A DNA stretch of 64,000 bases, from the NCBI GenBank assembly GCA_902806435.1, contig CADCWO010000064.1, positions 1 to 64,000 on the forward strand, read 5' to 3'. Positions within the stretch are counted from its first letter, which is position 1, and every line of letters begins with the position of its first letter. Of the stretch, positions 17,449-44,021 are shown piece after piece. The position numbers and the translations under genes were made by a program. The DNA is from an uncultured Synechococcales cyanobacterium. Its GTDB lineage: Bacteria > Cyanobacteriota > Cyanobacteriia > Thermosynechococcales > Thermosynechococcaceae. The notes under the pieces were generated by a model. The model made no database searches. It saw nothing but the letters and a program-made list of their open reading frames with translations, and was not told the origin of the DNA.

Positions 17449-18216
17449 GTGGCAAAGGCTCCGTCTTGGAAATATCCAGTCCTTAGATTGATTAAACAAG
17501 ATTTGCTGTCCTTTGCTTGCGAATTATCTGAACTGCGAGGCAGTAAGCGTTTTCTCCTAAAAGCTTTGAGGAAGCGGAATTTACTGTTTTTTCTAGGGGG
17601 TGCGATCGCGCTTTGGCAATGGCAACTGCTGCTGGCAGCTGGTATCGGTCTACTGAGTACAGGCTTAATCTACAAAATACAGCAGCGCGGCTGGCAACTG
17701 CCTTGGGCTAGTATCAGGCGGTTGTGGGATAGCGCCAACCGTCAGTTAATCTTGGCTGTTACTGCTGGCGGTGTTACTACACTGGGCGCTTACCTGGCGA
17801 TTGAGGTCTGGATCGATTCCAAAAATCCCTGGATTGCGACTGGAGCGATTCTTCAAGGCTGTGGCACATTAGCTGTCTTGATATTGCTAATTTGGCAAAT
17901 GGCTGAGCGTCATTCTTCCAGCAGTGATCTTCAATTCAACCAGTTAGTGCTCGATTTAACCCACTCTGACCCTCTAAAGCGGTTAATTGCTGTCCGCCAG
18001 CTCACTCAATCAGCTCAAGCGCGGCCTGACAAAACCCGTAATATGATGATTGCTGAGTATTTTCAGTTAATGCTGAGTCGAGAACTAGAAGTTGTAGTTC
18101 AAAACGCGATTTTAGACGGTTTAGAGGTTGTGGGCGCTTCGCAACTTAATTCCGCAGACAGTCCTGCTTGGCTGATTAACCCAGCTAAAACCAAAACAGT
18201 GCCTAGTTCCCACTAA
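17449..18216 (+). CDS. Membrane protein of the cyanobacterial armadillo-type-fold family
   Basis: A 255-aa protein. Hydrophobic helices are at about residues 44-72 (two passes), 100-120 and 132-152, then a soluble C-terminal part of about 100 residues (LVLDLTHSDPLKRLIAVRQLTQ...) that resembles a short armadillo/HEAT repeat. Similar cyanobacterial proteins are annotated only as armadillo-type fold proteins; the function is unknown. The start is GTG 17449. Its 3' end overlaps the convergent phnC by 4 nt. Confidence 0.65.
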   Translation: MAKAPSWKYPVLRLIKQDLLSFACELSELRGSKRFLLKALRKRNLLFFLGGAIALWQWQLLLAAGIGLLSTGLIYKIQQRGWQLPWASIRRLWDSANRQLILAVTAGGVTTLGAYLAIEVWIDSKNPWIATGAILQGCGTLAVLILLIWQMAERHSSSSDLQFNQLVLDLTHSDPLKRLIAVRQLTQSAQARPDKTRNMMIAEYFQLMLSRELEVVVQNAILDGLEVVGASQLNSADSPAWLINPAKTKTVPSSH

Positions 18217-18965
18217 TCTTTTTCCAAGCTGGAGGGGCGATAAATTTGATTGATATCAGCTTCGTCTAACTCGTCAGTCGGTGTATCCAGGACCAACCTT
18301 CCGGCGCGGATACCGAGGATGCGATCGCTGTATTGTTTGGCAAACTCTACTTGGTGCAGGTTGCAAATCACAGTCAATCCTTCTTGCTGGCAAAGCGATC
18401 GCAGCAAACTTAGTACCACTTGGGCTGAGTTTGGATCAAGGCTGGCAACGGGTTCATCGGCTAGAATCAAACCCGCACCCTGAGTTAGGGCCCGGGCAAT
18501 AGCCACTCGCTGCTGCTGCCCTCCCGAGAGTTGATCCGCTCGCTGAAACGCAAAGTCCAGTAATTGCACCCGGTTCAAAGCGCTCAGGCCTTCAACTAGT
18601 AGCGAGGTCGGATATTGGTTGAGAAAACAACGCCAGAGAGATAGCTCCGGTAGCCGCCCGGCTAGGCAGTTGGCTAAAGCACTGCGACGACGTACCAGGT
18701 TAGATTGCTGTGCGACCAGGGCAATTTGGCGACGACAAAAGCGTAGTTCCTTAGTAGAACAGGTTGTGAGGTTGAGTCCTTGAAACCAAATCTGGCCTTG
18801 ATCCGGCTGGAGGAGCCGCGGAATACAGCGTAGTAACGTCGATTTTCCGGCACCGCTTGGCCCCAAGATTGCTGTAAAGGAGTGGGGCTTGATTGTAAAG
18901 CTGATATCCCTCAGCGCGATCGCGCCACTGCGATAGGATTTAGAAAGTTGGGTAATCTGAAGCAT
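18213..18965 (-). CDS. phnC: Phosphonate-type ABC transporter ATP-binding protein, second cluster
   Basis: ATPase (250 aa) with Walker A GPSGAGKS at about residue 35, signature LSGGQQQR at about 148, Walker B ILADEP and switch His in NLHQVEFA. It powers the permease encoded by the next gene upstream (18970-19845), which lies only 4 nt away. The whole set (phnD-phnE-phnC, 20807 to 18213) is complete and distinct from the left-edge cluster, whose order is D-C-E. Substrate: phosphonate, phosphite or phosphate by family. Confidence 0.92.
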   Translation of the reverse strand: MLQITQLSKSYRSGAIALRDISFTIKPHSFTAILGPSGAGKSTLLRCIPRLLQPDQGQIWFQGLNLTTCSTKELRFCRRQIALVAQQSNLVRRRSALANCLAGRLPELSLWRCFLNQYPTSLLVEGLSALNRVQLLDFAFQRADQLSGGQQQRVAIARALTQGAGLILADEPVASLDPNSAQVVLSLLRSLCQQEGLTVICNLHQVEFAKQYSDRILGIRAGRLVLDTPTDELDEADINQIYRPSSLEKD

Positions 18966-18969
18966 TCAG

Positions 18970-19845
18970 CTAGCCGAGACGGTGACGTAAAGTAGCACTG
19001 AGGGCATCAATGCTGCTGACCATCACTAGGATCAAGATCAAAATTGTAGCCAGACGCGGGAAATCTAATAACTTCAGGCTAACCATAAGTTCGTAGCCAA
19101 TTCCTCCTGCCCCGACAATGCCAAGAATGACGGAGGAACGGACATTAAATTCCCACAAGTATAAGCTGATACCGATCAGCCCCGGCAAAGCTTCTGGTAG
19201 CACCGCAAAAGCAAAGGTGCGCAGACGGCCAGCCCCAATTGCTTCCACCGCCTCAATCGGCTCCGGGGGTAGAGTTTCTAATACCTCTGCGTAAAGCTTT
19301 GCCATCGAACCTGTGGTGTGGAAGGCGACACCCAATACTCCGGCAAAAGGCCCTAGGCCGACGACGGAGACAAAGATCAAGGCAAAAATAGCTGTGTCAA
19401 TTGCGCGCAGGCCATTTAAGGCAGCTCGCAGCGGGGTTGCTAATAAAGGAAGCGGGGTGATGTTCCGAGCAACAACAACTGCTAGTGGTAGCGCCAGCAC
19501 AATCGCGATAACGGTACCGATAATCGCGATCGCCAGGGTTTCCCAAGTGGCGGAGGCAAAAGCAGGCCACTCCGAAAAGTCTGGCGGCCACAGCCGGACT
19601 AGCCAATCCCCTAAGCGGGGTAAGCCAGACCAAAGTTCCTGGGGCGCAACCTTGGCTTTTTGCACACTAGCAGCTATGACCGCAAATCCCATCAAACCCC
19701 AGAAGCTACGGCGTAGAAAGCGCCCTATCCAGGTGCGTTTGTACCTGGACTTTAAGATTGCCTCAAAATCCGGCGGCGGATGCAGACGCTGGGATGTTGA
19801 GGATGACCCTGGCGGCCTACAGCCCTCCGGGACGTTTCTCGTCAC
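18970..19845 (-). CDS. phnE: Phosphonate-type ABC transporter permease, second cluster
   Basis: Inner-membrane permease of 291 aa, the normal single-domain length. A cytoplasmic N-terminal tail of about 45 residues is followed by about six hydrophobic helices and the BPD_transp_1 signature around GIVGAGGIGYELM (about 245). The start ATG overlaps the stop of phnD by 4 nt. Compared with the left-edge permease, it does not continue into a second domain. Confidence 0.92.
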   Translation of the reverse strand: MTRNVPEGCRPPGSSSTSQRLHPPPDFEAILKSRYKRTWIGRFLRRSFWGLMGFAVIAASVQKAKVAPQELWSGLPRLGDWLVRLWPPDFSEWPAFASATWETLAIAIIGTVIAIVLALPLAVVVARNITPLPLLATPLRAALNGLRAIDTAIFALIFVSVVGLGPFAGVLGVAFHTTGSMAKLYAEVLETLPPEPIEAVEAIGAGRLRTFAFAVLPEALPGLIGISLYLWEFNVRSSVILGIVGAGGIGYELMVSLKLLDFPRLATILILILVMVSSIDALSATLRHRLG

Positions 19846-20807
19846 TTCACTGTACCTACTGATCGTCCTGCCGCCTCAATCGGAGCATAGTTACTGCCAT
19901 CGGACTTGACGAAGCCTGTGTAATTTTGAGGTAACAGCTTTTTAGCTTGCTCTGGGGAAAAGTTTACCAGCACAGTTTGTACTTTGGTTTTAATAGCATC
20001 CGGTAGGCCTCCCCGAACGGCGATCGCATCATTAGGCAAAGGATTGGACTGCCAAATAATTTTCAGTTTTGATTGATCGATCCGTCCTTCGCTGACTAGC
20101 ACATCTAGGTTGCGATCGTAATCAGAGGCAATGTCAGTTTGGCCGCTTAGCACAGCAATTGCTTGGGCGGCATGGCTGGCGCCCTCGTTATAGTCAAAAA
20201 CGGTTTTAGGGTCAATTTGGCGTCGCTTGAACTCTGCTTGGGGAACCAGCCAGCCGGAAGTAGAGCCGACATCCGCCAAGCTGAGCTTGAGTTTCGCCTT
20301 GGTTTGACTTTGACTGATGGCCTGATCTAGGGTATCAAACGGAGCATCCGCCCGCGCCATTAAGACAGCCTGATAGGTGGGCTTATCTTTGTATTTAACT
20401 GTCGCGATCGCCTGGATTGACGGCTCATTATGCTGGGCGAGCACGAACCCCCAAGGCCCCAACCATGCCGCATCTAGAGTGCCAGAGCGTAGAGCTTCTG
20501 AGATGCCCACCCAATCTTCGGTTATGGCAACCTCAGCAGCTGGAAGATTGACCTGCTTTGCCAATTCCTGAAACAGCGGCTCAAACTGTTTACGGTTCTC
20601 ACCAGGGGTCGGGAAGTAAGGGCCAACGCCAAATTTGATCTGCTCTAGCTTTGCCTCGGGAGTTCCCGTTGTGGGAGCTTGTCCTTCAGGGCTACTATCA
20701 GGGCCACCGCTACAGGCAACCACAAGGACTAGGGCCAGTGTTCCTAGAATGATTCTCCGCAGCCAACGGGGAACAAAGTGAATATAATTTTTACTGCGAT
20801 TATTCAT
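19842..20807 (-). CDS. phnD: Phosphonate/phosphite-type substrate-binding lipoprotein, second cluster
   Basis: Start ATG 20807 (a longer frame reaches 20831). The signal is a basic stretch, RRIILGTLALVLVVAC, with lipobox VVAC, so a lipid-anchored binding protein. The mature part (FGVGPYFPTPGENRKQFEPLF, then SGTLDAAWLGPWGFVLAQ) is PhnD/PtxB-like. It overlaps phnE by 4 nt. The substrate cannot be told from sequence; phosphite or phosphonate are the usual choices. No ptxD or C-P lyase gene is in the window. Confidence 0.9.
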   Translation of the reverse strand: MNNRSKNYIHFVPRWLRRIILGTLALVLVVACSGGPDSSPEGQAPTTGTPEAKLEQIKFGVGPYFPTPGENRKQFEPLFQELAKQVNLPAAEVAITEDWVGISEALRSGTLDAAWLGPWGFVLAQHNEPSIQAIATVKYKDKPTYQAVLMARADAPFDTLDQAISQSQTKAKLKLSLADVGSTSGWLVPQAEFKRRQIDPKTVFDYNEGASHAAQAIAVLSGQTDIASDYDRNLDVLVSEGRIDQSKLKIIWQSNPLPNDAIAVRGGLPDAIKTKVQTVLVNFSPEQAKKLLPQNYTGFVKSDGSNYAPIEAAGRSVGTVK

Positions 20808-20889
20808 GCGCTCGATTGTGTCACCTAGCAAAAGCTGCGAGAGCCGGAATGTCTGCTTATCTAGCCTAAAGCAACATGCTTGAGCCTTT

Positions 20890-24008: not shown

Positions 24009-25106
24009 TCAGCACTCAACGCTACTATCTATGTCGCCGTGGCATAGTAACTGCTCTAGTTGAGTAACCCGTTGGGTATACGTATGTTCTGCCAAAACTC
24101 TTCTGCGGGCAGCATCACCGATCTGGCGAGCTCGATCTGGGGTGAGTGACTGTAGCAGTTCAGCTACCTGCTGTCCATTGTGAGCAATCAGGATTTCCTC
24201 GGCTGGCTCCAGGAACTGCTCTATGCCCTGCCAAGGATCGGTGATTAAACAGGCGCCTGCCCCGGCAGCCTCAAATATTCGTGTCGCGGGGGAGAAGCCA
24301 TAGGTGGCCATACTCTGGCGATTAATGTTTAAGACGGCCCGCGAGGAGCAATTGAAAGCATTGTGTTCGCAGGTGCGGACGTGACCAATAAGATGAACAT
24401 TTTGGGGCAGAACTTTATCATCCCAGCCGCTCCCGCCAAGCAAAAATTTACTTGTAGGTATCTGGGCAGCAGCCTTCAGAAGAAATTCCTCAACTCGCGC
24501 TTCACGATCAGGTAAGCGATTGCCTAAAAAGCTAAGATCCGCCGCAAAGCTTGGGTCAGGCCCTACTGGGTAATGAGTGGTGGGGTCCAAGGCATTGTAG
24601 ATAGGTGTACAGCTGTGCGCCCCAAGGCCAGTATAGGCTTCAACTACTGGCGCCCCACCTCCGTAGGTTAAAACCAGGTCATACTGAGGAATCAAAGAGC
24701 GGAAGGGGTCTTTGGGGTTGGCTAGCACCCGATCCAGCGTGGCAGGCGCATCCACGTCCCAAAATCCAATTAGGTTGTTGGCTTGTTTCAGTTCTAGAAC
24801 TGCCGCCTCAAGCAGGGCGTCGAACACCCCGACACCGCTGGCCTTGAGGATCAAGTCAGCACCTCTGGCCTGCTCTAAAGACTGCAATACCCCCGTTTCA
24901 GTGGCTGGATAGACGACAACCCTGGCCCAATCTGGATCGGGAATATCCCGATGAGCTTGGCGGCCAAAGGCATCCGGTTCATAGAAGGTTACTTGATGAT
25001 CGCGATCGCTAAGGGCTCGGATAATTCCTCGGTAATAGGTTGCTGCGCCATTCCAGTAGGCAGAGACTAGGCTAGAGCCGAAAAAGGCGATGTTGAGACC
25101 AGTCAT
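24009..25106 (-). CDS. CgeB-like glycosyltransferase (last gene of glycan operon)
   Basis: A 365-aa glycosyltransferase of the CgeB/DUF3880-type GT-B fold. Characteristic features are NIAFFGSSLVSAYWNGAAT near the start, DADLILKASG, a D-rich middle, a substrate-side LSFLGNRLPDREARV, and the C-terminal nucleotide-binding stretch RIFEAAGAGACLITDPWQGI. It overlaps the upstream gene by 4 nt. A similar motif order occurs in the genes at 25103 and 32114, so these three are paralogs. Donor and acceptor are unknown. Confidence 0.83.
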   Translation of the reverse strand: MTGLNIAFFGSSLVSAYWNGAATYYRGIIRALSDRDHQVTFYEPDAFGRQAHRDIPDPDWARVVVYPATETGVLQSLEQARGADLILKASGVGVFDALLEAAVLELKQANNLIGFWDVDAPATLDRVLANPKDPFRSLIPQYDLVLTYGGGAPVVEAYTGLGAHSCTPIYNALDPTTHYPVGPDPSFAADLSFLGNRLPDREARVEEFLLKAAAQIPTSKFLLGGSGWDDKVLPQNVHLIGHVRTCEHNAFNCSSRAVLNINRQSMATYGFSPATRIFEAAGAGACLITDPWQGIEQFLEPAEEILIAHNGQQVAELLQSLTPDRARQIGDAARRRVLAEHTYTQRVTQLEQLLCHGDIDSSVEC

Positions 25107-26221
25107 GCCAGTAACGCCTCCGCTTGACTTATTTCCTCCAGTTGTCTGTAGATGTGGAGCAATTCATCCACCCGATGAGCACAGGTATGGCGCGCCCGAA
25201 TGGTTTTCAGTCCATGGTCAACCAGAGTCTCGGCCTCGCTAGGATTTGCCAAGAGCCTCTTCAGGTGATGCTGCATAGCCTCCCCCGTAGGAGCTACCAA
25301 GAAGTCTTGACCAGGGGTAAACAGTCCTTCTGCGTCCTGCCAGGGAGCAGAGATCAAGGGAATCCCACAGGCTAGGGCTTCAAAGGGCCGAATTGTGGGG
25401 ATACCCGGTAAAGCGTCAGCATAAGGGCGGCGGGGGACATGAACGGTGACCCGAAAGCGACTAAACACCTGAGGGACTTGGTAGTTCGGTAACCAACCAC
25501 CATACTCAATGCCAGCATCACTCAAAGCTTTCTGGGCAGACTGCGGATAGCGCACCCCATAAACCCGTGCCTTTAGACCAAGCGTTTTGATCGGGTTAAT
25601 TAAGAACTCATCCAGCTCCGCCGTGCGCTCATCATCGCCCCAGTTGCCAATCCAGACCAGATCTCCTTCACACTCAGAAGATCCAATGGGGTGAAAAATC
25701 CGGGTGTCAGCTGCTTCATGCCAGGCCCAGGCTTGCTTGATCCAGCCTTGGGCAAGGTAAAGATCACGAATCACTGCTCCAAAAGCCAATAGGCCATCGT
25801 AATTGGTTAGATCATAGGCTGCCATGCTATCCGGGGCGGTAACCGAACGATGGTGAGTATCGTGGAATATCAGGCGGTAGCTACCTGCCTGGGCTCGGTG
25901 TTGACCAATCTGCTGTACCAGCACCGGATCATTCCACTCATGCACCAGGACGAGATTGGCCCCGGCTAGAGCTTGATCTAGGTCCAGCACTGAAGGGTCG
26001 TAGCGGGTGCTCTGAAGCTGGGGATAGGCTACCTGAAATTCAGCGATCGCGCTATTCCCAGCGTCCGCCAGCAGGTTCTGAAGGCTCCAAGCGTCCTTGG
26101 GTTCATAAACCCGAACTTGATGTCCCCGAGAAAGTAGTTCCGTCGTGATACCACGCAAAAAGTGAGCGTTGCCGTGGTTCCAATCCGACAGCAGGGAATG
26201 GCAAAAAATTACGATCTGCAT
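25103..26221 (-). CDS. CgeB-like glycosyltransferase
   Basis: A 372-aa GT-B glycosyltransferase similar to its neighbours. The start IVIFCHSLLSDWNHGNAHFLRGI and the C-terminal RPFEALACGIPLISAPWQDAEGLF mark the CgeB/GT4-like architecture. It overlaps the downstream gene by 4 nt and the upstream GT4-like gene by 13 nt, so the three GT genes are almost certainly translated from one message. It may act before or after the 24009 enzyme; order cannot be seen. Confidence 0.82.
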   Translation of the reverse strand: MQIVIFCHSLLSDWNHGNAHFLRGITTELLSRGHQVRVYEPKDAWSLQNLLADAGNSAIAEFQVAYPQLQSTRYDPSVLDLDQALAGANLVLVHEWNDPVLVQQIGQHRAQAGSYRLIFHDTHHRSVTAPDSMAAYDLTNYDGLLAFGAVIRDLYLAQGWIKQAWAWHEAADTRIFHPIGSSECEGDLVWIGNWGDDERTAELDEFLINPIKTLGLKARVYGVRYPQSAQKALSDAGIEYGGWLPNYQVPQVFSRFRVTVHVPRRPYADALPGIPTIRPFEALACGIPLISAPWQDAEGLFTPGQDFLVAPTGEAMQHHLKRLLANPSEAETLVDHGLKTIRARHTCAHRVDELLHIYRQLEEISQAEALLA

Positions 26222-27312
26222 AATGATTCTGTTTGAGGTGGCCCAACCGTGGACTGGGTAAGCTCGCCATAGAGCCTCAGATAGCCAGCCGCCATCCGCT
26301 GTGGACTAAATTCCAAGGCGCGATCGCGGGCCTGGGCTGCCAAAGTTTTGCACTGCTCAGGCTGGGCAATCAGGCTTTGCAAGGTGTGCCTCAAGGCTAC
26401 CGGATCATCTGGTGGGACAAACAACGCTGCCTCTGCCCAAAGTTCTCGCAGGCTAGGGATATCCCCCAAGACTAGAGCACAGCCAGATAACCCCGCTTCC
26501 AGAATAGACAGGCCAAAGGGTTCATAGCGGGCGGGCAAGGCATAGATAGTAGCTTTGGCTAACCAGGAGGCTAGGGCCGAAAAAGAGAGGTGGCCCAGCA
26601 GCTGTACCTGCTCAGGTTCTACCGCTCCCCCCTGGGGATGCCGGGGCTCACCGGCAACATAAACTGGCCAGTTCAAATCACCAGCTACCTGGTCGAGGGC
26701 AGATAGATTCTTGGCTTCATCCCATAGCCGCCCCACACTAATAATGCTTTCCGACTTCTCCCCTGGCTTGAAGTGAACCGGATCTCGACCGTTGGGAATC
26801 ACCTGCGCCTTAGGCAGAGGGCCATAATGTCGCTGGAGTAACGCTAGCATGGCTTGGGAAGGGGCAACCACCCGCTCGGCTGCTTGCAATCCATGCGTGA
26901 CGGCATGATGATACCGTCCCCACTCTTGCGGGGCTGCTTCACCTTTAACAGCCTGCCACCAGGAGAGAACACAGGAATGTCCGACTACCAAGACAGGAGA
27001 CTGCCAGTCTAAGGCAGCGTGAACATATCCATTCAGATGCACCACATCCGGCTGAACCTGCGTTTCTAGGTGTAATAACCACTCTCCTGCTTGCTGCAGA
27101 TCAGCCCAGGGCTCGTCCATCCACTCCAACTTGAAGCAGCTCTCTACGATCTCCAGGTGAGGAAGCCGGACTTGCAACCGTTGTTCCTGCGTCAGGGGTG
27201 CTCCCATGGTGGCGATCACCACCTCTACGCCATGACGGGACAAAGCTTCAGCCAGCTCCAGGGCATAGGTCCATACCCCCCCTACAGTGTCGGCGGTCAT
27301 TAAGATCCGCAT
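26209..27312 (-). CDS. GT4-family glycosyltransferase
   Basis: A 367-aa GT-B retaining-type enzyme. The N-terminal MRILMTADTVGGVWTYALE and donor-domain motifs VIPNGRDPVHF, SVGRLWDEAKNL and YEPFGLSILEAGLSGCALVLG (with the E-x7-E-like element) are classic for GT4. It overlaps genes on both sides (13 nt each). Within the cassette it is the enzyme most like capsule or lipopolysaccharide GTs; the sugar is unknown. Confidence 0.88.
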   Translation of the reverse strand: MRILMTADTVGGVWTYALELAEALSRHGVEVVIATMGAPLTQEQRLQVRLPHLEIVESCFKLEWMDEPWADLQQAGEWLLHLETQVQPDVVHLNGYVHAALDWQSPVLVVGHSCVLSWWQAVKGEAAPQEWGRYHHAVTHGLQAAERVVAPSQAMLALLQRHYGPLPKAQVIPNGRDPVHFKPGEKSESIISVGRLWDEAKNLSALDQVAGDLNWPVYVAGEPRHPQGGAVEPEQVQLLGHLSFSALASWLAKATIYALPARYEPFGLSILEAGLSGCALVLGDIPSLRELWAEAALFVPPDDPVALRHTLQSLIAQPEQCKTLAAQARDRALEFSPQRMAAGYLRLYGELTQSTVGPPQTESLCRS

Positions 27313-28580
27313 TGCTCTAGCTGAGGCAGCGGCAGCGGCTGTTCTGACTGAATATCACTAAATTGGGCGTAAACATCTAAATAATAAGCATGGGCACGCT
27401 CCCATGCTTGCTGATCGGGCACCCCCCACTTTTTCATGTAGTCGGGTGACCCAGGATAAGGAAACAGGGGAACGGGCTGGTTCGCCCAGACCCCAAACTG
27501 CTGGAGGTGCTGCCGCCACTGAGTGATCGCTGCCGGGTCATCGACCCGCGATTCCAAAAGATTTGCCTGCACAAAAGGCACCCGCTCTTTGGCGTAGATC
27601 AAGCGATCGCTCAGTTCTAGCGTAGAGAGCTTGCAGTGTTTGTCCAATAGTTGCCGGCCGGCCTCAGTGATGCTTTCCACCCCCGCTTCAATCGAAACAC
27701 AGCCCGCTGCCCCTAATAGATCCAGCATGTCGCGATTCCAGAGGTCAATTCGTGTCTGCACACCAAACTTAACTGGGCGCTCCACCAGGGCTTGCAGCAG
27801 TTCTGGGTTGGGCAGGAAAATTTCATCAATGAAGTAGATATACTCAACCCCTTGAGCCAGCAGCCCATCTAGTTCCTCCAGAATTACTGCCAGGGGACGA
27901 CGGCGATAGCGATCGCGGAAGTTCTGCTTGGCACAGAAGGAGCAACGATAGGGGCAACCGCGAGAAGTTTCCATCTCTGCCCCTGGCCCTGTGGGCACTG
28001 CCTCAAAGCGGTGGTGGTGATGGTGGTGACGCTGAATCATCTCTAGGGGCCAGTGGAGCGCTGGCAGGGCGCTCATATCGGAGGCGTGAGGAATGCCCTG
28101 TACCCGCGGTACTTCTGCTTGCCAGTAGCAAAGGGAAACAACCTGCGGCCAGGGATTGGTCAATTGGGGCAAAATCTCCTCGCACTCACCCAAAATGACA
28201 ACGTCTACGCCCAGTTTCCGCAACGTAGCCTCGGGGGTGGTAGAGCCATGAGGCCCAATTGCCACCAGGGTTCCCCCAACATCCCGCAGATGCTGCACAA
28301 CCATTTGTGGCACCCGCAGTTCTGGGGGGGCACAGCGCCAGAATAGATAGCTGGGGGCAGTCGTGACGACGGTAAAATCTGGCCCAAAGGCAGCAAGGCG
28401 CGATCGCATCTCCTCTAAACTCAGATCTGCTAGTTGGCCATCTACCAGTAACACGTCATGCCCTGCTTGCTCTAGCAGTAGCTTGGCATAGCCATATTCC
28501 AAGGGCAGATGGGGCTCCCGGCAGCCAAAGTAGATGCTGCCCTCAAAGCTCCAATTGGGGTTGATCAAGGCATATTTCAT
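27300..28580 (-). CDS. B12-binding radical SAM protein
   Basis: A 426-aa protein from ATG 28580; the longer frame to 28688 would overlap the upstream gene by more than 100 nt. A cobalamin-binding-like N-terminal domain (about 1-165) precedes the radical SAM barrel, with the cluster motif CPYRCSFC at Cys209, Cys213 and Cys216. It belongs to the BchE/PhpK-like class of B12 radical SAM methyltransferases and related enzymes. The B12 domain lacks an evident DxHxxG motif, so cobalamin may bind in a base-off or histidine-independent way. A natural run of six histidines (about residues 185-190) sits just before the cluster motif. In this operon it may methylate or rearrange a sugar. Confidence 0.85.
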   Translation of the reverse strand: MKYALINPNWSFEGSIYFGCREPHLPLEYGYAKLLLEQAGHDVLLVDGQLADLSLEEMRSRLAAFGPDFTVVTTAPSYLFWRCAPPELRVPQMVVQHLRDVGGTLVAIGPHGSTTPEATLRKLGVDVVILGECEEILPQLTNPWPQVVSLCYWQAEVPRVQGIPHASDMSALPALHWPLEMIQRHHHHHHRFEAVPTGPGAEMETSRGCPYRCSFCAKQNFRDRYRRRPLAVILEELDGLLAQGVEYIYFIDEIFLPNPELLQALVERPVKFGVQTRIDLWNRDMLDLLGAAGCVSIEAGVESITEAGRQLLDKHCKLSTLELSDRLIYAKERVPFVQANLLESRVDDPAAITQWRQHLQQFGVWANQPVPLFPYPGSPDYMKKWGVPDQQAWERAHAYYLDVYAQFSDIQSEQPLPLPQLEQCGS

Positions 28581-30679
28581 CGTGCTCCTCCCCCAGCGAC
28601 TAGCGGCAGGGTAGGTACTCCCCGCGATGAGCGTAACCACTGATATAGGGTTTGGACACCTTGGTACACGCCTATCTGAGGCACCCAACCTGTCGCCCTG
28701 GAAAACTTGCCAATGTCAGCCACGTAGTAGCGTTGGTCACCGGAACGCCAGCGATCAAATTGTACGGGTGGCCTGCTGCCGTGGATCTGCTCAATCAAGT
28801 CAATCAATTCCAGCAAACTAGTTGTACTACTAGGGCCACCCCCGATATTAAACGCCTGACCGCAAAGGCTGCCCATATGATTCTGAGCTAGCAAAAAAGC
28901 ATCTACCAGGTCTTCTACAAATAGAACATCCCGCACCTGCATCCCATCCCCGTACAAGCAGATTGGCTGATCGGCCAAAGCTCGAATCAGAAAATGGGCT
29001 ACCCATCCTTGATCCTCGGTCCCAAACTGGTGAGGGCCATAGATACAGCTCATCCGAAACACGACGGCCGATAGACCAAAGGTGCGAGCATAGTCGAGGA
29101 CATACTGATCTGCGGCGCCTTTGGAGCAACCGTAGGGGCTGTGGAAGGTCAGCGGCTGCTCCTCGCTAATCCCGGCAGCTCGGATTAAGGGGTCCGCTGG
29201 CTGATAGCGCCTGTTATCCAATTGCAATTCAACATCTTCCAGCCCTCCGTAGACTTTGTTGGTGGAGGTAAAGACGAGCGGGGGCGGATTCTCTAAGCTG
29301 CGCAAGGCCTCCAGTAGATTCAAGGTACCCTGGACATTAATTTCAAAGTCATGAACTGGATTTTTCAAGCTGGTGGTTACCGCCACCTGCGCGGCTAGGT
29401 GAAATACTTGCGCTGCTCCCGCCACAGCCTGCCGCAGGGCATAGGTATTGCGAACATCGCCAATTTTAATCTGGAGGCGATCGCCATGCATCTGCCGTAG
29501 CCAGGACAAGTTCTGTTCCACCCCTGGTCGCGAGAGGTTGTCGAACACCAGCACTGGCTGCCCGGCGCTCAGTAAGCGATGGGCCAAGTTGGTGCCAATA
29601 AATCCGGCGCCACCAGTAATCAGCACCGGACGTTCTTCCCGAGAGTTGAGCGAGACAGCCGAGGCAGGCTCCCCCAGCTCTACGATCTGTTGTACGGTTT
29701 CAAAACCTCGCTGTGACCAGAGCCGATAGAGCAGCTTGGGGGTACCATCGGCCTGTTTAAGACCCATGTGATAGTGGCGAACATCGCAGTACAGCCCATC
29801 CTGGGTCGGTACATCAGTGGGCAGATCGTAGCCAGAATACCAGTACAGCCGCTCTACTGGGGCAGCGATCGCTTGCAGAAAAGCCTCAAGCTGGGCATAT
29901 TGATCATGCCGCCAGGTAGAAAACCCCGTTTCCGTAATCCACACCTGTGCCGCTGAGCCATGCTCCGCCATGACTGCTCGCACCTGGGCAACATTTGCGA
30001 CCCACTCTTGCGCATCAAATTCCCAGGTTCCCGGAAAGCCATGGATACCCACGGCATCAATATGAGCCAAAATGCCCCGCCGGGCAATCAAGCGCAGCCA
30101 GTTGAAGTCAATCGGAGCCATGCCAGCCAGAACCGTCTTTTTACCCCGCTGCTGAGACCAGTAAGCGGCAGCGCCGATCATTTCACAAAAAATTTGCCAA
30201 TCGGGATCAAGACGCCAATCCCAGTCCGCCAGATTATTCGGCTCGTTCCAAAGTTCCACCCACTCAAAGTAATCGCCGAACTCTGTAATCATCCCATCTA
30301 GGAAGTCAGCGTAAACTTTGGGGTGCCGGGGGGGTGCTGAGGTTTTAGGCTGAATGCCTAGGGAGGGTGGGGTGTAGTGAAAACAGGGTAGAAGATTGAC
30401 GGATTGCGCCAGTCGCGGCAGCAGCCAGCGATACCATTCCTGCCCTACCGGGGTATGCCAATCGGCCCAGGAAACACCGGTACGAAGTTCCGTAACCCCT
30501 AGGGCTTCTAGATCAATGAGCAGCGACTCCACCCGTTGATGCTCACCTGGCCGGAACCACTCCACCAATCCCAGCAGTGGCCTAACAGAGAAGGTTGAAT
30601 TTAAATTGCGGGCTTCATTTTTGAAGGCACCAACCCCTGTTTCAAAAGGTTGGGATGGTCCGCCATGTTGCTCCCTCAT
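28577..30679 (-). CDS. Fusion: clan GH-A glycoside hydrolase + NAD-dependent epimerase
   Basis: A 700-aa two-domain protein. Residues about 35-330 resemble the GH39/beta-xylosidase-type TIM barrel, with acid/base E146 in LWNEPNN and nucleophile E250 in WITETGFS. Residues about 350-695 are an extended SDR epimerase: glycine motif GGAGFIG at 356-362 and catalytic Y516/K520 in YGCSK. Both active sites look intact. The start ATG overlaps the upstream epimerase stop by 4 nt and its end overlaps the radical SAM start by 4 nt. A hydrolase and a nucleotide-sugar epimerase in one chain suggests turnover coupled to donor synthesis, but this is inference. The GH part has no signal peptide, so it is likely cytoplasmic. 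Confidence 0.86.
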   Translation of the reverse strand: MREQHGGPSQPFETGVGAFKNEARNLNSTFSVRPLLGLVEWFRPGEHQRVESLLIDLEALGVTELRTGVSWADWHTPVGQEWYRWLLPRLAQSVNLLPCFHYTPPSLGIQPKTSAPPRHPKVYADFLDGMITEFGDYFEWVELWNEPNNLADWDWRLDPDWQIFCEMIGAAAYWSQQRGKKTVLAGMAPIDFNWLRLIARRGILAHIDAVGIHGFPGTWEFDAQEWVANVAQVRAVMAEHGSAAQVWITETGFSTWRHDQYAQLEAFLQAIAAPVERLYWYSGYDLPTDVPTQDGLYCDVRHYHMGLKQADGTPKLLYRLWSQRGFETVQQIVELGEPASAVSLNSREERPVLITGGAGFIGTNLAHRLLSAGQPVLVFDNLSRPGVEQNLSWLRQMHGDRLQIKIGDVRNTYALRQAVAGAAQVFHLAAQVAVTTSLKNPVHDFEINVQGTLNLLEALRSLENPPPLVFTSTNKVYGGLEDVELQLDNRRYQPADPLIRAAGISEEQPLTFHSPYGCSKGAADQYVLDYARTFGLSAVVFRMSCIYGPHQFGTEDQGWVAHFLIRALADQPICLYGDGMQVRDVLFVEDLVDAFLLAQNHMGSLCGQAFNIGGGPSSTTSLLELIDLIEQIHGSRPPVQFDRWRSGDQRYYVADIGKFSRATGWVPQIGVYQGVQTLYQWLRSSRGVPTLPLVAGGGAR

Positions 30680-31794
30680 ACGGTTAATCCTCGGCTGGCA
30701 AGTTCTGAGCGAGCTTCTGTAACCCGGTCTAAGGCAACTTGCCCTTCAAGCCAAGCTGCCAGTTCCAGCAAGCCTGTTGATAGCATTACTTGCGGTTGAT
30801 ACCCCAGTACCTGTTGGGCCTGGGTGATATCTGCAAAGCAATGGCGGATGTCCCCCATGCGATATTTGGCGGTGATTTCCGGTTGAATTCCTTCCTTACC
30901 CAACGCCTGAGACACCTGCTCCGCAACCTCTCGAATCGTGTAGTGGTGGCCACTGCCGATATTAAAGACCTGCCCCGCTGCATCAGGAACTTCTAGAGCT
31001 AAGCGGCAAGCTTGAGCAACATCGTACACACTGACAAAATCTCGCTGTTGGTAGCCATCCTCATTGATCAGCGGTGGCTGGTTGTTCAACAATCGCGAAG
31101 CAAAGATCGCTAAAACGCCGGTGTACGGGTTAGAAAGCGCTTGCCGAGTGCCGAAGATATTAAAGAAGCGCAAGGCAACGGTGGGAATACCATAGGCCCG
31201 CCCGATCATTAAGCACATTTGCTCTTGATCAAACTTGGAGAGGGCATAAATCGAAGACAAAGCTGGGGCTTTAGTTTCAGGGGTCGGGACGGGTGTTAGT
31301 ACCTCCCCAACCGCGTTGTGAATTTCCCAGTTTTTGGCCTTTAGTTGGTCGAGACTCCGTTGGACGCCTACTGTCAAGCTCCCGCTGGGTGTCAGGTAAA
31401 GACCTTCTCCGTACAGGCTCATACTCGAAGCGACAATCAGGCGCTCAACTGGCTGCTCAATTAGGGCTTCTAACAGGGTGGCTGTGCCCATATTGTTGAC
31501 GCTGGTGTACTGAGCAATCTCGTACATGCTCTGACCAACGCCAACAACCGCAGCCAGGTGGTAGACGGCATCAATCCCTTTAACAGCCCGCCGCACGATA
31601 TCAGGATCGCGGACATCCCCAATTACCAACTCAATCTCTGAGTCTAAATAGTTGGGCCGTCCAGCCTCTGGCCCATGGACTTGTGGGGTAAGATTGTCCA
31701 GAACTCGAACCTGGTAGCCGTTGGCCAGTAGTTGATCGGCTAAATGTGAGCCAACGAACCCGGCGCCACCGGTGATCAGAATACGTTTACTCAT
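30676..31794 (-). CDS. NAD-dependent epimerase/dehydratase
   Basis: A 372-aa extended SDR (UDP-sugar epimerase-like) starting at ATG 31794; the frame to 31914 adds 40 residues without the family. Glycine motif GGAGFVGSH at about residue 8 and catalytic YALSK at about 178. It is the first gene of the cassette operon and overlaps the fusion gene by 4 nt. It probably makes a sugar-nucleotide donor for the GTs. Confidence 0.86.
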   Translation of the reverse strand: MSKRILITGGAGFVGSHLADQLLANGYQVRVLDNLTPQVHGPEAGRPNYLDSEIELVIGDVRDPDIVRRAVKGIDAVYHLAAVVGVGQSMYEIAQYTSVNNMGTATLLEALIEQPVERLIVASSMSLYGEGLYLTPSGSLTVGVQRSLDQLKAKNWEIHNAVGEVLTPVPTPETKAPALSSIYALSKFDQEQMCLMIGRAYGIPTVALRFFNIFGTRQALSNPYTGVLAIFASRLLNNQPPLINEDGYQQRDFVSVYDVAQACRLALEVPDAAGQVFNIGSGHHYTIREVAEQVSQALGKEGIQPEITAKYRMGDIRHCFADITQAQQVLGYQPQVMLSTGLLELAAWLEGQVALDRVTEARSELASRGLTV

Positions 31795-32113: not shown

Positions 32114-33178
32114 ATGCTGAAAATTATTATCCTGGGCCTGTCGATCACCTCCTCCTGGGGCAACGGCCATGCCACTACCTACCGGGGATTAGTGCGGGAA
32201 CTTTCTCAACGAGGACATCAGGTATTGTTTCTAGAGCGGGATGTTCCCTGGTACGCCGCCCAGCGGGATTTACTTTCTCCCCCTGGCGGGCGAGTCGAAT
32301 TGTATACCAGTCTGCCAGAGCTCAAACGCTTTACTCAAGAAGTCCAAGCCGCCGACCTAGTGATCGTCGGGTCCTATGTCCCGGAAGGCGTGGCGGTTGG
32401 GGAGTGGGTTACGAAGACTGCCCAGGGGATAACTGCCTTTTACGACATTGATACCCCGGTAACCCTGGCAAAGCTAGAACAAGGTGATACAGAGTATCTC
32501 TGTTGTGAGCTGATTCCCCGCTATCACTTGTACCTCTCCTTTACAGGAGGCCCCATCCTTAACTGGATTGAGAAGCACTATGGATCACCGATGGCACGGC
32601 CTCTCTATTGTGCGGTCGATCCGTCACTCTACTACCCAGAAGCAACCGAGCCCAGGTGGGATTTGGGATACATGGGAACCTACAGCGATGACCGCCAACC
32701 GGTATTAGAGCGACTGATGCTTACACCCGCTCGCCAGTTACAGACGGGTCACATGGTTGTGGCCGGACCGCAATACCTTGCGGATATTCAGTGGCCTCAA
32801 AACGTAGAGCGAATTGAGCATCTTCCTCCGGCTGAGCACCGCACTTTTTATAATGCCCAACGATTTACCCTCAATGTCACCCGGGCGGATATGGTACGGG
32901 TGGGCTATGCTCCCAGTGTGCGCCTATTTGAAGCGGCTGCCTGCGCTACGCCAATTATTAGTGACTACTGGCAGGGGCTAGAAAGCTTTTTTGAGCTGGG
33001 TTCAGAGATTTTAGTCTCTAATTGCGCAGCAGACACCCTGCGCTACTTGCGCCAATTGCCAGATGACGAGCGGCTGGCTGTTGGAGCGCGCGCACGCCAA
33101 CGAGTTTTGTCTGCCCATACCGCAGCTCACCGCGCTGCTGAATTGGAACAGTATGCGATCGCAATTTTAGATGCCTGA
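32114..33178 (+). CDS. CgeB-like glycosyltransferase, divergent from the cassette
   Basis: A 354-aa GT-B protein: IIILGLSITSSWGNGHATT at the start, LDYPEATEPR-like middle, and RLFEAAACATPIISDYWQGL near the end. It is closely similar in layout to the gene at 24009 and less so to 25103. It faces the other way from the six-gene operon but shares the 320-nt divergent region, so it likely belongs to the same system. ATG start at 32114. Confidence 0.82.
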   Translation: MLKIIILGLSITSSWGNGHATTYRGLVRELSQRGHQVLFLERDVPWYAAQRDLLSPPGGRVELYTSLPELKRFTQEVQAADLVIVGSYVPEGVAVGEWVTKTAQGITAFYDIDTPVTLAKLEQGDTEYLCCELIPRYHLYLSFTGGPILNWIEKHYGSPMARPLYCAVDPSLYYPEATEPRWDLGYMGTYSDDRQPVLERLMLTPARQLQTGHMVVAGPQYLADIQWPQNVERIEHLPPAEHRTFYNAQRFTLNVTRADMVRVGYAPSVRLFEAAACATPIISDYWQGLESFFELGSEILVSNCAADTLRYLRQLPDDERLAVGARARQRVLSAHTAAHRAAELEQYAIAILDA

Positions 33179-35794: not shown

Positions 35795-36964
35795 ATGAAA
35801 GCTGTTTGCTGGCAAGGCGCTAACCAAGTGCAGGTAGAGACGGTTCCAGAGCCGAAGATTCTCAACCCGCGTGATGCCATTCTTAAAGTTACATCAACGG
35901 CAATTTGTGGCTCTGATTTGCATATCTACGGCGGTTATATTCCCACAGTCCAGAAGGGTGACATTATTGGTCACGAATTTATGGGAGAAATCGTCGAAGT
36001 TGGTAAAGGAGTAAATACTTTAAAAGTAGGCGATCGCGTAGTCGTACCTTCAACTATCGGCTGTGGTAACTGCTTCTACTGCCAACGGGATATGTGGTCG
36101 CTATGCGATAACTCCAACCCAAACGGCTGGATGGAAGAAAAACTGTGGGGTAATATCACCTCTGCGATTTATGGCTACTCCCACTTATTAGGCGGCTATG
36201 CAGGCGCTCAAGCTGAATATGTCCGCGTACCTTTTGCCGATGTCGGTGTCGTCAAAGTCCCTAAAGACATACCAGATGAAAAGTTGTTATTTATTTCAGA
36301 TGCTATCCCCACTGGCTATATGGGCGCAGAGTTATGCCATATTCAACCAGGAGATACCGTAGCTGTCTGGGGTTGTGGCGCAGTGGGTATATTTGCCATG
36401 ATCAGTGCCTACATGATGGGTGCAGAACGCGTTATCGCGATTGACCGCTTTCCAGAACGTTTAGAAATGGCCAAAAAACACGCCAAGGTCGAACTTATTA
36501 ACTACGAAGAAGTTAGTGCTGGGGATGCGCTTAAGGAAATGACGGGCGGACGTGGCCCCGATGCTTGTATTGACGCAGTAGGCTTAGAAGCACATGGCGT
36601 GGGTATAGAAGACTTCTATGACCAGACAAAACAAAAGTTAAAGCTAGAAACAGATCGTCCTCACGTTTTACGAGAAATGATGGTTGCTTGTCGTAAAGGC
36701 GGCACACTATCAATCATGGGAGTGTATGGCGGCTTCGTAGACAAACTCCCAATTGGTGCAGTCATGAATAAGGGCTTAACTTTGAGATCGGGGCAAATGC
36801 ACGGTCAGAAGTATATGCATAAGTTACTGGATTTGGTTTTAACTGGAGAACTCGATCCTTCTTTTGTGGTTACCCATCAATTACCGCTAGAACAAGCGCC
36901 TCACGCCTACAAGATTTTTCAGCAGAAACAAGACAACTGCATCAAGGTTGTACTCAAACCATAA
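35795..36964 (+). CDS. Zinc-dependent alcohol/formaldehyde dehydrogenase (copy 1)
   Basis: A 389-aa MDR-family dehydrogenase. Catalytic zinc ligands C and H lie in [10 protein letters not shown] and [12 protein letters not shown]; the structural zinc loop has four Cys in [15 protein letters not shown]; the NAD-binding motif is GCGAVGIF. Most like glutathione-independent formaldehyde dehydrogenase-type enzymes; substrate not certain. It and the next gene are recent duplicates (very similar ends, [11 protein letters not shown]). The leader has a tandem heptamer repeat. Confidence 0.9.
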
Positions 36965-37064
36965 AAGAGTCTTTTGTCCTTAGTTATTAGCAATCACACT
37001 ATAGATAGGCCTTGCTCGGTTTTCCATAGGGTAAGACTTAGGGAGGGGAGAATTGTGTGCTAAC

Positions 37065-37110
37065 GATTAATGACCAATGACTAATGACCAATAATTAAGG
37101 ACTAATAATC
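37065..37110 (+). repeat. Degenerate heptamer repeats upstream of second dehydrogenase
   Basis: Six or seven imperfect heptamers of the type CCAATGA/CTAATGA/CCAATAA/CTAATAA, ending directly at the ATG of the second dehydrogenase (37111). The unit is related to the ATTACTA of the first copy (both TAATnAn-rich), suggesting that the leader was duplicated or that repeats settle in such leaders. Confidence 0.75.
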
Positions 37111-38280
37111 ATGAAAGCAGTTTGCTGGCACGGCACTAACGATGTACGGGTCGAAACAGTCCCCGATCCCAAAATCATTAACCCGCGTGATGCAATCATC
37201 AAAATCACGTCGACCGCGATTTGCGGTTCTGATTTACATCTTTATGACGGCTACAACCCAACGATGAAGTCAGGGGACATCCTAGGCCATGAATTCATGG
37301 GAGAGGTTGTCGAATTGGGTAGCGCTGTCAAGAACGTCAACATAGGCGATCGCGTTGTTGTCCCTTTTACCATCTCCTGCGGATCGTGTTTTTTCTGCCA
37401 AAAAGATTTGTGGTCACTGTGTGATAACTCTAACCCCAACGCTTGGATGGTGGAAAAAATCATGGGTTACTCGCCCTCTGGTCTTTTTGGCTACTCCCAT
37501 TTGACGGGTGGTTACGCCGGCGGTCAAGCAGAATATGCCCGGGTACCCTTTGCCGATGTCGGTTTATTTAAGATTCCTGATGGGCTGACAGACGAACAAG
37601 TCTTATTTCTGACAGATATTTTCCCCACCGGTTATATGGCAGCAGAAAACTGCGACATCGAGCCCGGAGATACTGTTGCAGTCTGGGGCTGTGGACCAGT
37701 CGGACAGTTCGGCATTAGAAGTGCCTATATGCTAGGTGCAGAGAGAGTAATTGCAATTGACCGAGTTCCTGAACGCCTGAAAATGGCTAAGGAACAAAGT
37801 AAGGCAGAAGTCATTAACTATGAGGAAGTAGATGCAGGTGAAGCCCTGAAGGAGATGACAGGGGGGCGCGGTCCTGATTCTTGCATGGACGCTGTAGGAA
37901 TGGAGGCACACGGCACGGGCTTAGAAGGATTCTACGACCAAGCAAAGCAAGCAGTGCGTCTAGAAACAGATCGGCCTACTGCCCTGCGGCAAGCGATCGT
38001 TGCCTGTCGTAAAGGTGGGACTGTATCAGTGCCTGGTGTTTACACTGGCTTTGTAGACAAGATACCGATGGGTGCTTTCATGAATAAAGGTTTGACAATG
38101 AAAACAGGGCAAACGCACGTTCATCGGTACTTCCGCCCATTACTCGAACGCATCCAAAATGGCGAGATCGATCCCTCTTACATAATTACCCATCGCTTGC
38201 CTTTGGCGAAAGCACCCCACGCCTACGAGATCTTTAAGCACAAGAAGGACAACTGCATCAAGGTTGTGCTCAAGCCTTAA
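37111..38280 (+). CDS. Zinc-dependent alcohol/formaldehyde dehydrogenase (copy 2)
   Basis: A 389-aa paralog of the preceding gene and of equal length. It keeps [22 protein letters not shown], the four-Cys loop [15 protein letters not shown] and NAD motif GCGPVGQF. Both copies appear intact. The 146-nt gap between them is filled by a short leader and heptamer repeats. The neighbours (SRPBCC pseudogene, DJ-1/PfpI tail, GST, peroxiredoxin pseudogene) suggest aldehyde or oxidative-stress detoxification. Confidence 0.9.
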
Positions 38281-42734: not shown

Positions 42735-44021
42735 TTAGGCCTGAGTGACGTGGCCTAGGTAATTAGGATCTCTCTTTGGCTCACCGTTTGGCCTAAGCTT
42801 TACCACAACCCATTGCGTCACTGGTGCCATTGCTTTCCAACCCAGGAATTTGCCCACAGGTTCTGCCCGCTGAATTACAATGCGGGTCAGTTCGCCTCCC
42901 AGTTTGCTCTGCCCCTTGAAGACCATTTGTTCGCTTTCAACCGTGACGGCATTGGCGACCAGACGGCCTCCTGGAAGAAGCGCCTGCCAACAGGTTTCGA
43001 ATAGCTCTGGCGTGATCAAGCCGCCGCCAATGAAGATGGCATTGGGTTGGGGCAGATTCTTGAGTACGTCAGGGGCTTTTCCCGCAACAATTTTGAGATG
43101 AGGTGTGCCCAGGGCGATCGCATTGTCCGCAATATATTGCAGCCGATTCGGATGCTGTTCAATGGCGATCGCCTGACACCTGCGATCGCTGCGTATCCAC
43201 TCAATGCCAATCGAACCACAACCCGCCCCCACATCCCACAGTAGTTGTCCGGGTAAAGGGGCAAGAGCAGCCAAAGTCACGGCACGAACTTCGTACTTGG
43301 TCAATTGCCCATCGTGCTGGTAAGCGGTGTCGGGGAGTGCGCTGCGATTACAGGAAGAGAGGAGTGGAAGACTAGCAGGAATGCAGGTAATGGCAATCGT
43401 ATTTAAATCTGCAAGGTCTGTGGCGGTCCAGGAGGAAGCGATACCTGCAACAATGCGCTCGTGGGTACCGCCCATGCGTTCCAGTACGGTTATTTGACTA
43501 TCTCCAAAGCCTTGCTGAACGAGAAGTTGGGCAGCCGTTATCGGAGTAGATCGATCTGCGCTCAACACGAGTAATCGTGCACCGGCATACAGCACTGCAT
43601 TTAACAGAGCCGGATCGCGGCCACATAAACTGAGGGTTTCCACCTCTGTCAGCGACCAGCCCAATCGAGCACAGGCAAGGCTAAAAGCAGAGGGAGCCGG
43701 AACAATAGTAATTTCAGCAATAGAAATATGGCGGGTCAGGGTGACTCCAATGCCATAACACATCGGATCGCCACTCGCCAAAACGCAGACTGGTTGCCCG
43801 CGACGCTGAATCACCTCATTCACCGATTCTTCAATCGGCGCAGTCCAGGAAAGCTTTTCTCGCGTATCGGCTACGGGCAACATAGCTAGATGGCGTTCTC
43901 CACCCACCAGAATTGCTGCTTGATCAATCAGCGATTGCCCTGCCGGGCTTAATCCAGCTAGTCCATCTTCACCCACGCCGACAATCGATAACCATTTTTG
44001 CTTGAAATCCCTGCTGCTCAT
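42735..44021 (-). CDS. cobL: Bifunctional cobalt-precorrin-7 C5-methyltransferase/decarboxylating C15-methyltransferase
   Basis: A 428-aa fusion of CbiE (about 1-210: GVGEDGLAGLS, SGDPMCYGIG, PAPSAFSLACA) and CbiT (about 225-428: GQLLWDVGAGCGSIGIEWIR SAM-binding motif). It works in vitamin B12 corrin-ring synthesis. Both SAM-binding sites look intact. Cobalamin synthesis is notable because the B12-binding radical SAM enzyme in the glycan cassette would need the cofactor. No cobalamin riboswitch was recognised upstream. Confidence 0.92.
   Translation of the reverse strand: MSSRDFKQKWLSIVGVGEDGLAGLSPAGQSLIDQAAILVGGERHLAMLPVADTREKLSWTAPIEESVNEVIQRRGQPVCVLASGDPMCYGIGVTLTRHISIAEITIVPAPSAFSLACARLGWSLTEVETLSLCGRDPALLNAVLYAGARLLVLSADRSTPITAAQLLVQQGFGDSQITVLERMGGTHERIVAGIASSWTATDLADLNTIAITCIPASLPLLSSCNRSALPDTAYQHDGQLTKYEVRAVTLAALAPLPGQLLWDVGAGCGSIGIEWIRSDRRCQAIAIEQHPNRLQYIADNAIALGTPHLKIVAGKAPDVLKNLPQPNAIFIGGGLITPELFETCWQALLPGGRLVANAVTVESEQMVFKGQSKLGGELTRIVIQRAEPVGKFLGWKAMAPVTQWVVVKLRPNGEPKRDPNYLGHVTQA

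Follow-up and report, generated by a model that had tools for sequence, protein, structure and literature searches.

A predicted glycosidase barrel fused to a putative nucleotide-sugar 2-epimerase and its circularly permuted stand-alone relatives

Why should a bacterial cell tie a barrel of the glycoside hydrolase type to a nucleotide-sugar epimerase in a single cytoplasmic chain? The question is raised by a gene of 700 codons at 28577-30679 in a stretch of 64,000 nucleotides from an uncultured Synechococcales cyanobacterium (contig CADCWO010000064.1; hereafter the window). An earlier reading of this DNA, made from the letters and open reading frames alone (the sequence-only reading), described the product as a hydrolase-epimerase fusion with both catalytic centres intact, and proposed that it either processes an intracellular glycoside or carries a repurposed barrel that only binds sugar. 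The present analysis indicates that the fusion is a widespread architecture concealed by annotation; the more surprising result is its counterpart, namely a stand-alone barrel of the same type in which the two parts of the domain are swapped.

Domain layout and distribution of the fusion

The sequence-only reading gave the position of the gene correctly and left its strand unstated. The open reading frame is on the minus strand, and translation of the same interval on the plus strand is riddled with stops. Both catalytic centres were found at the residue numbers originally given, i.e., E146 and E250 in the N-terminal half and, in the C-terminal half, GGAGFIG (residues 356-362) and Y516 and K520, which represent the GxxGxxG NAD-binding motif and the YxxxK motif of extended short-chain dehydrogenases/reductases (SDRs). 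An alignment of fused proteins comprised 35 rows, of which 34 were used (L047, in the wrong frame, was left out), and the two glutamates, the Tyr-Lys pair and the glycine-rich motif are unchanged in all 34.

The chain was modelled with AlphaFold2 from an alignment of 26 rows, yielding a mean predicted local distance difference test (pLDDT) of 85.3 and a predicted template-modelling score (pTM) of 0.85. The N-terminal half forms a clean (beta/alpha)8 barrel in which strands and helices take turns in order, the first of the eight strands at residues 35-39 and the last at 277-281. Low confidence is confined to the first 31 residues and to residues 340-347, after which the SDR follows. Clan GH-A enzymes carry the acid/base glutamate after an asparagine at the end of strand beta-4 and the nucleophile glutamate at the end of beta-7, and their active site is marked by a constellation of Arg, Asn-Glu, His, Glu and Trp. 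In the model, E146 of the N145-E146 pair comes directly after beta-4 (140-143) and E250 lies within beta-7 (245-251), and R66, N145, E146, H213, E250 and W280 are all invariant in the alignment of 26 rows. To judge from the sequence, the N-terminal half is thus an intact barrel of the clan GH-A type.

The placing in family GH39, which had been suggested together with the clan, could not be established. A Pfam search with the barrel half of the window protein gave no family match even at E 10 (Pfam covers the SDR from residue 352), and among 32 barrels a single one matches the GH39 family PF01229, at E 0.015. In a profile search of the Protein Data Bank (PDB) with the 32 barrels, PslG from the psl cluster of Pseudomonas came first at a weak E of 1.8e-4, followed at 8.6e-4 by the GH39 beta-xylosidases 1w91 and 2bs9, which match profile positions 82-212. 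These two xylosidases have extra domains, which are not seen in the fusion. The alignments with PslG pair E146 with residue 139 of the PslG chain and E250 with chain residue 250; with an offset of 26 in the chain numbering, which we infer, these would be the two key residues of PslG, given in PMC9075953 as E165 and E276.

The C-terminal half, previously described as an SDR epimerase, can be placed more narrowly. A phmmer search matched it to the CDP-tyvelose (CDP-paratose) 2-epimerase structures 1orr and 9rl0 at E about 1e-86, the next matches being at 1e-38. In a fold search the same enzyme had Z 41.7, a root-mean-square deviation of 1.9 over 328 residues and 46% identity, and the next-best structure had Z 35.5; the whole two-domain model was used as the query, and among the matches listed all cover the SDR only. 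The homology extends over the full length of the domain, with the stretches STNKVYG and HSPYGCSKGAADQY in common. By homology, the CDP-tyvelose/paratose 2-epimerase branch of extended SDRs is where the C-terminal half belongs, and it is intact. It differs from the known enzyme in being fused to a GH-A type barrel and in its substrate, probably another NDP-sugar; no genes of the CDP-tyvelose pathway were recognised nearby, in a neighbourhood where no search was aimed at them.

There is no sign of an export signal in the fusion, to which a signal-peptide program was not applied, and the relatives described in the next section start 5-10 residues ahead of the catalytic Glu, which leaves them no space for a signal peptide. 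The sequence-only reading is supported in its picture of a fused chain with two intact centres and no sign of export.

The two-domain gene is far from unique. Scanning genomes with only the barrel half as query gave 31 loci, all 31 of which carry barrel and SDR in one frame, and the gene was also found in plasmid records and in G062, a genome from the window's phylum. Chance read-through or an assembly error, which the sequence-only reading had named as one way in which its claim could fail, is refuted by these independent occurrences of the same domain pair, and we give it virtually no weight. The scan loci come from Mojavia, Phycisphaerales, Pontibacter, Salinimicrobium and many Alphaproteobacteria as well as from Armatimonadota; Mojavia belongs to Cyanobacteria, Phycisphaerales to Planctomycetota, and Pontibacter and Salinimicrobium to Bacteroidota. 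Among 292 genomes of the window's phylum, a close barrel is present only in the window's own genome and in G062 (four other matching genomes reach 26-31% identity). The TIGR04295 family, to which the gene downstream of the fusion belongs, scores above its cut-off in these same two genomes out of 386. Such a sporadic distribution suggests that the cluster is horizontally transferred. In the public records that we read, the fusion is annotated as "NAD-dependent epimerase/dehydratase", which hides the hydrolase half. A literature search combining CDP-paratose 2-epimerase, glycosyl hydrolase and fusion gave nothing on point among the matches listed.

Some loci showed irregularities that concern the fusion gene itself. 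Near 133522 on contig C26 of G062 (locus L010) the upstream SDR appears joined into the middle of the barrel by a deletion or a misassembly, and near 9001-9900 of L047, from Xanthomonas sacchari, the barrel is in two pieces, probably through a frameshift, with the annotated start inside the barrel. N-terminal extensions of ~200 residues in L056, L067, L069, L070 and L076 were considered as a possible further part of the protein; they resemble each other, but where they lie and what they are composed of point to the upstream SDR gene translated out of frame, and they were not counted.

Permuted barrels and the history of fused and split forms

Sinorhizobium meliloti (pSymB), Paracoccus yeei and Roseomonas mucosa encode an epimerase without a barrel attached, which shares 53-56% identity with the C-terminal half of the window protein; the barrel is a separate gene of the same cluster with its two parts swapped. 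In pairwise comparison, window residues 138/143 to 315/318 match the first part of the stand-alone protein and residues 34/36 to 135 match the second. With a profile of 34 canonical barrels, all eight stand-alone proteins match as positions 106/109/110 to 285-292 and then 2/3 to 101-103, and the two pieces together make up a nearly complete barrel domain. The cut maps between helix alpha-3 (121-137) and strand beta-4 (140-143) of the window model. At the level of sequence, the stand-alone proteins are accordingly identified by their matches as GH-A type barrels with a circular permutation in the alpha-3/beta-4 loop. No barrel piece is recognisable in frame ahead of the three annotated permuted genes, and the motifs around the catalytic Glu pair and around the Arg, His and Trp are retained in all eight proteins. 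Public records call the three annotated genes "beta-xylosidase" (a name recalling the GH39 enzymes, which differ from the window barrel in that the latter has no Pfam GH39 match), "hypothetical protein" and "glycosyl hydrolase".

Plasmids carry the permuted form frequently: tblastn with the S. meliloti protein found 146 plasmid records, 97 of them at 80% coverage or more. Among the best 60 of those records, 40 cover at least 88% of the query and 20 cover 56-61%, the latter being fused genes where annotated. A stand-alone barrel in canonical order also occurs beside a fusion in Phycisphaerales (L091), and a Phycisphaerales contig (L162, 2442-3404) carries one ~8 kb from its fusion, a possible relative of the permuted lineage. 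GH70 and MalS (GH13_19) offer a parallel, in that published work on them describes (beta/alpha)8 glycosidases that are circularly permuted in nature, as a whole or in their domains. The present case concerns a barrel of the GH-A type, opened between alpha-3 and beta-4. GH70 and MalS belong to the alpha-amylase clan. Our literature search found no paper combining circular permutation, clan GH-A and glycoside hydrolase. For a barrel of this type, the system allows circular permutation to be tested on an evolutionary scale.

The relation between the two halves was examined in a sample of 289 alphaproteobacterial genomes, from which weak matches in G421 and G553 (a 117-residue frame with a stop) were left out. 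Barrel and epimerase are both present in 12 genomes, the barrel alone in none, the epimerase alone in 2, and neither in 275. The permuted form is found in 6 of the 12 barrel genomes, the fused form in 8 and both forms in 2, namely G396 and G607; the fused copy in G607 is a tail cut by the contig start and was counted. The genomes or records behind the seven split epimerases of the tree below all carry a permuted barrel (7/7).

A tree was built from 50 epimerase domains, seven of them split. The split ones are scattered over four positions between fused ones, and the well-supported branches force four changes between the fused and the split state. By this tree, separation took place four times or more. 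The permuted barrels are monophyletic on the barrel tree (100/99). In S. meliloti and R. mucosa the stand-alone epimerase is preceded by a stretch similar to the linker between the domains of fused relatives (HLAAPAL in both L080 and L077, LAAP in L081), which is likely a scar of the separation; no clear linker remnant was seen ahead of five other split epimerases (L083, L148, L149, L150 and L152).

The most economical interpretation makes the fusion the older state; the arrival of a permuted barrel with another module would then have let the fused barrel be lost at least four times. The alternative is repeated independent fusion instead of repeated separation, which requires the identical domain order to have arisen every time. 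We consider it rather probable that the permuted GH-A barrel spread within a module that also comprises a methyltransferase, a phosphatase and inositol-phosphate synthase, and that it took over from the fused barrel on four or more occasions. The glycosidase step of one cytoplasmic glycan pathway would then be interchangeable, served by a canonical barrel in the fusion or by a free permuted one; Rhizobium phaseoli and G607, which have both forms, would be intermediates. The module is visible in the gene neighbourhood: the permuted gene is accompanied by inositol-3-phosphate synthase in 8 of 9 loci (the exception is L151) and usually occurs with a histidine-type phosphatase and a TIGR04290 methyltransferase. 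For organisms with the permuted barrel this makes a glycan linked to a cyclitol plausible; for the window's organism it is unproven.

That in several relatives a permuted copy sits elsewhere in the genome when the fused half has dropped off suggests that the pathway needs the barrel enzyme. Because a permuted homologue seems to replace the absent fused barrel, the barrel and the epimerase appear to act in one pathway and do not merely share one chain.

Biosynthetic setting and predicted role

The content of the gene clusters was determined by tblastn with named reference proteins in 32 fused loci, i.e., the window and the 31 scan loci. Gene order is constant in most of them, with an upstream SDR (SDR1), the fusion, further enzymes and glycosyltransferases. 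SDR1 is present in 31 of the 32 and is the immediate upstream neighbour of the barrel in all 31 loci where a neighbour could be placed. The four glycosyltransferases, designated GT4, b, c and d, occur in 31, 31, 31 and 30 loci, respectively.

Our preferred reading, to which we assign a probability of about 0.55, is that the barrel works inside the cell as a glycosidase, trimming the cytoplasmic glycan which its own operon makes, and is coupled to an NDP-sugar 2-epimerase, both activities being predicted from sequence and model. The SDR half would epimerise a cytoplasmic NDP-sugar at C-2, oxidising and re-reducing it in an NAD-dependent manner, the four glycosyltransferases of the operon would build a small glycan or glycoside, and the GH-A half, as a retaining glycosidase, would remove or edit a sugar on that product inside the cell. 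By analogy, the barrel might serve its glycan synthesis as PslG serves the synthesis of Psl, both being encoded within a glycan-synthesis cluster and having two Glu in matching places; the gene clusters of the two differ, and the profile match between them is weak. Where the fused barrel is absent the permuted homologue would stand in for it, the two forms being presumably equivalent in function.

Of the two options of the sequence-only reading, intracellular glycoside processing is thus favoured over a barrel that only binds sugar. A barrel of the latter kind would steer substrate to the epimerase, as its fusion to a sugar enzyme might suggest, and the pTM of the model is compatible with a fixed domain arrangement. 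It would, however, need neither the full GH-A constellation, which is invariant around both glutamates in the fused rows, nor the corresponding motifs kept in the permuted homologues, and the barrel also survives as a separate gene; we regard a role restricted to binding as improbable.

A second possibility is that the barrel forms a bond rather than breaks one, i.e., that it is a transglycosidase that transfers sugar to a cytoplasmic acceptor during assembly. The same invariant catalytic pair would do for this reaction, and the setting with its glycosyltransferases is biosynthetic; then again, four such enzymes are already there, and no sequence feature was found that separates a transglycosidase from a hydrolase. 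We hold this to be the less likely chemistry, at odds of perhaps one in several. Somewhat less likely still is a housekeeping or salvage hydrolase that destroys mis-assembled or excess cytoplasmic glycan, acting as a safety valve and not as a pathway step. A glycosidase within a glycan-synthesis cluster is known from PslG (PMC9075953), and the almost strict co-inheritance of barrel and epimerase speaks for such a role, but occasional loss of the barrel would then be expected, and of the 13 genomes with an epimerase of at least 52% identity only G473, where the gene is at a contig edge, lacks a found barrel.

Several observations weigh against the trimming role or against the history on which it draws. 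The co-occurrence of barrel and epimerase in the 289 genomes has a Fisher p of 1.6e-19, which overstates the independence of the observations because the sampled genomes are related. No barrel was found in two epimerase-bearing genomes, G473 (epimerase at the contig edge) and G592 (44% identity). The barrel family has no Pfam GH assignment, and long branches make it uncertain where the permuted barrels belong on the barrel tree. In S. meliloti some 7 kb separate the permuted gene from the epimerase, and the two are oppositely oriented. Inositol-phosphate synthase was found in none of the 32 fused loci, and nothing in the window's genome matches the S. meliloti enzyme. The inositol idea may therefore be limited to organisms with the permuted barrel.

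The need of glycan-synthesis clusters for an intracellular glycosidase is presented as an open question in the PslG work (PMC9075953). In the system described here the putative glycosidase is covalently tied to an NDP-sugar epimerase, is nearly always inherited with it and has apparently been replaced repeatedly by a permuted relative, and the question becomes testable in S. meliloti, a laboratory organism, by simple gene removals.

Gene neighbourhood and minor observations

In the window the fusion is one of six consecutive genes on the minus strand that overlap by a few bases (Table 1). The genes around it point to oligosaccharide-type clusters, the window neighbour being a TIGR04295 protein and the S. 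meliloti cluster containing a TIGR04290 protein. No paper naming TIGR04295 or TIGR04290 was found in the literature search, hence no cluster product under those names, and a search under S. meliloti locus tags beginning SMb2023/SMb2024 returned a sugar-transporter gene only.

Table 1. Coordinates of the fusion gene, its parts, its neighbours in the window and the permuted relatives
Feature	Position	Strand	Basis
Fusion gene, GH-A type barrel + SDR 2-epimerase (predicted), 700 aa	28577..30679	minus	ORF translation, alignment, AlphaFold2 model
GH-A (beta/alpha)8 barrel domain, residues 34-336	29672..30580	minus	AlphaFold2 model, PDB profile match PslG/GH39
E146 codon, presumed acid/base Glu (WNEPN)	30242..30244	minus	34/34 rows
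E250 codon, presumed nucleophile (WITETG)	29930..29932	minus	34/34 rows
Interdomain linker, residues 337-350, partly low-confidence	29630..29671	minus	AlphaFold2 model
Extended SDR domain, CDP-tyvelose 2-epimerase-like, residues 351-688	28616..29629	minus	phmmer, fold search
NAD-binding GGAGFIG, residues 356-362	29594..29614	minus	alignment
SDR Tyr516...Lys520 (YGCSK)	29120..29134	minus	alignment
SDR1, upstream, UDP-sugar 4-epimerase-like; stop overlaps fusion ATG	30676..31794	minus	start codons, homology
TIGR04295 B12-binding radical SAM; ATG at 28580 overlaps fusion stop	27300..28580	minus	735 bits vs cut-off 400
GT4-type glycosyltransferase	26209..27312	minus	profile + tblastn
Glycosyltransferase b (PF13524)	25103..26221	minus	profile + tblastn
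Glycosyltransferase c (PF13524)	24009..25106	minus	profile + tblastn
Glycosyltransferase d (PF13524), divergent here, co-oriented with cluster in most relatives	32114..33178	plus	profile + tblastn
Stand-alone permuted GH-A type barrels	L080 3829-4791, L081 15109-16056, L083 7400-8344, L085, L105, L106, L108, L109		

Other enzymes of the fused loci are less constant. UDP-glucuronate decarboxylase occurs in 19 of the 32 and the TIGR04290 methyltransferase in 22; the window's genome has a homologue of the former elsewhere (59%) and weak matches only to the latter. The B12-binding radical SAM gene follows the fusion in 7/32; a Zn-dehydrogenase is present in 22/32 and a Gfo/Idh oxidoreductase in 18/32, these two genes lying on one side or the other of the SDR1-fusion pair. 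In a table of 48 fused, split and permuted loci, which includes some near-copies or one place twice (e.g., L048/L157 and L052/L162), the radical SAM gene occurs in 21 and the dehydrogenase/oxidoreductase in 27, and both together in none. Their mutual exclusion suggests that the radical SAM protein and the Zn-dehydrogenase/Gfo-Idh pair perform the same step, possibly a case of non-homologous replacement for a single reaction such as an epimerisation.

Elsewhere in the window, a CbiE/CbiT cobalamin-synthesis protein is encoded at 42735-44021, on the same stretch as the B12-dependent radical SAM gene, probably by coincidence. Two adjacent zinc dehydrogenases of 389 aa with similar family matches lie at 35795-38280, and phosphonate transporter genes of the phnCDE type at 18213-20831.

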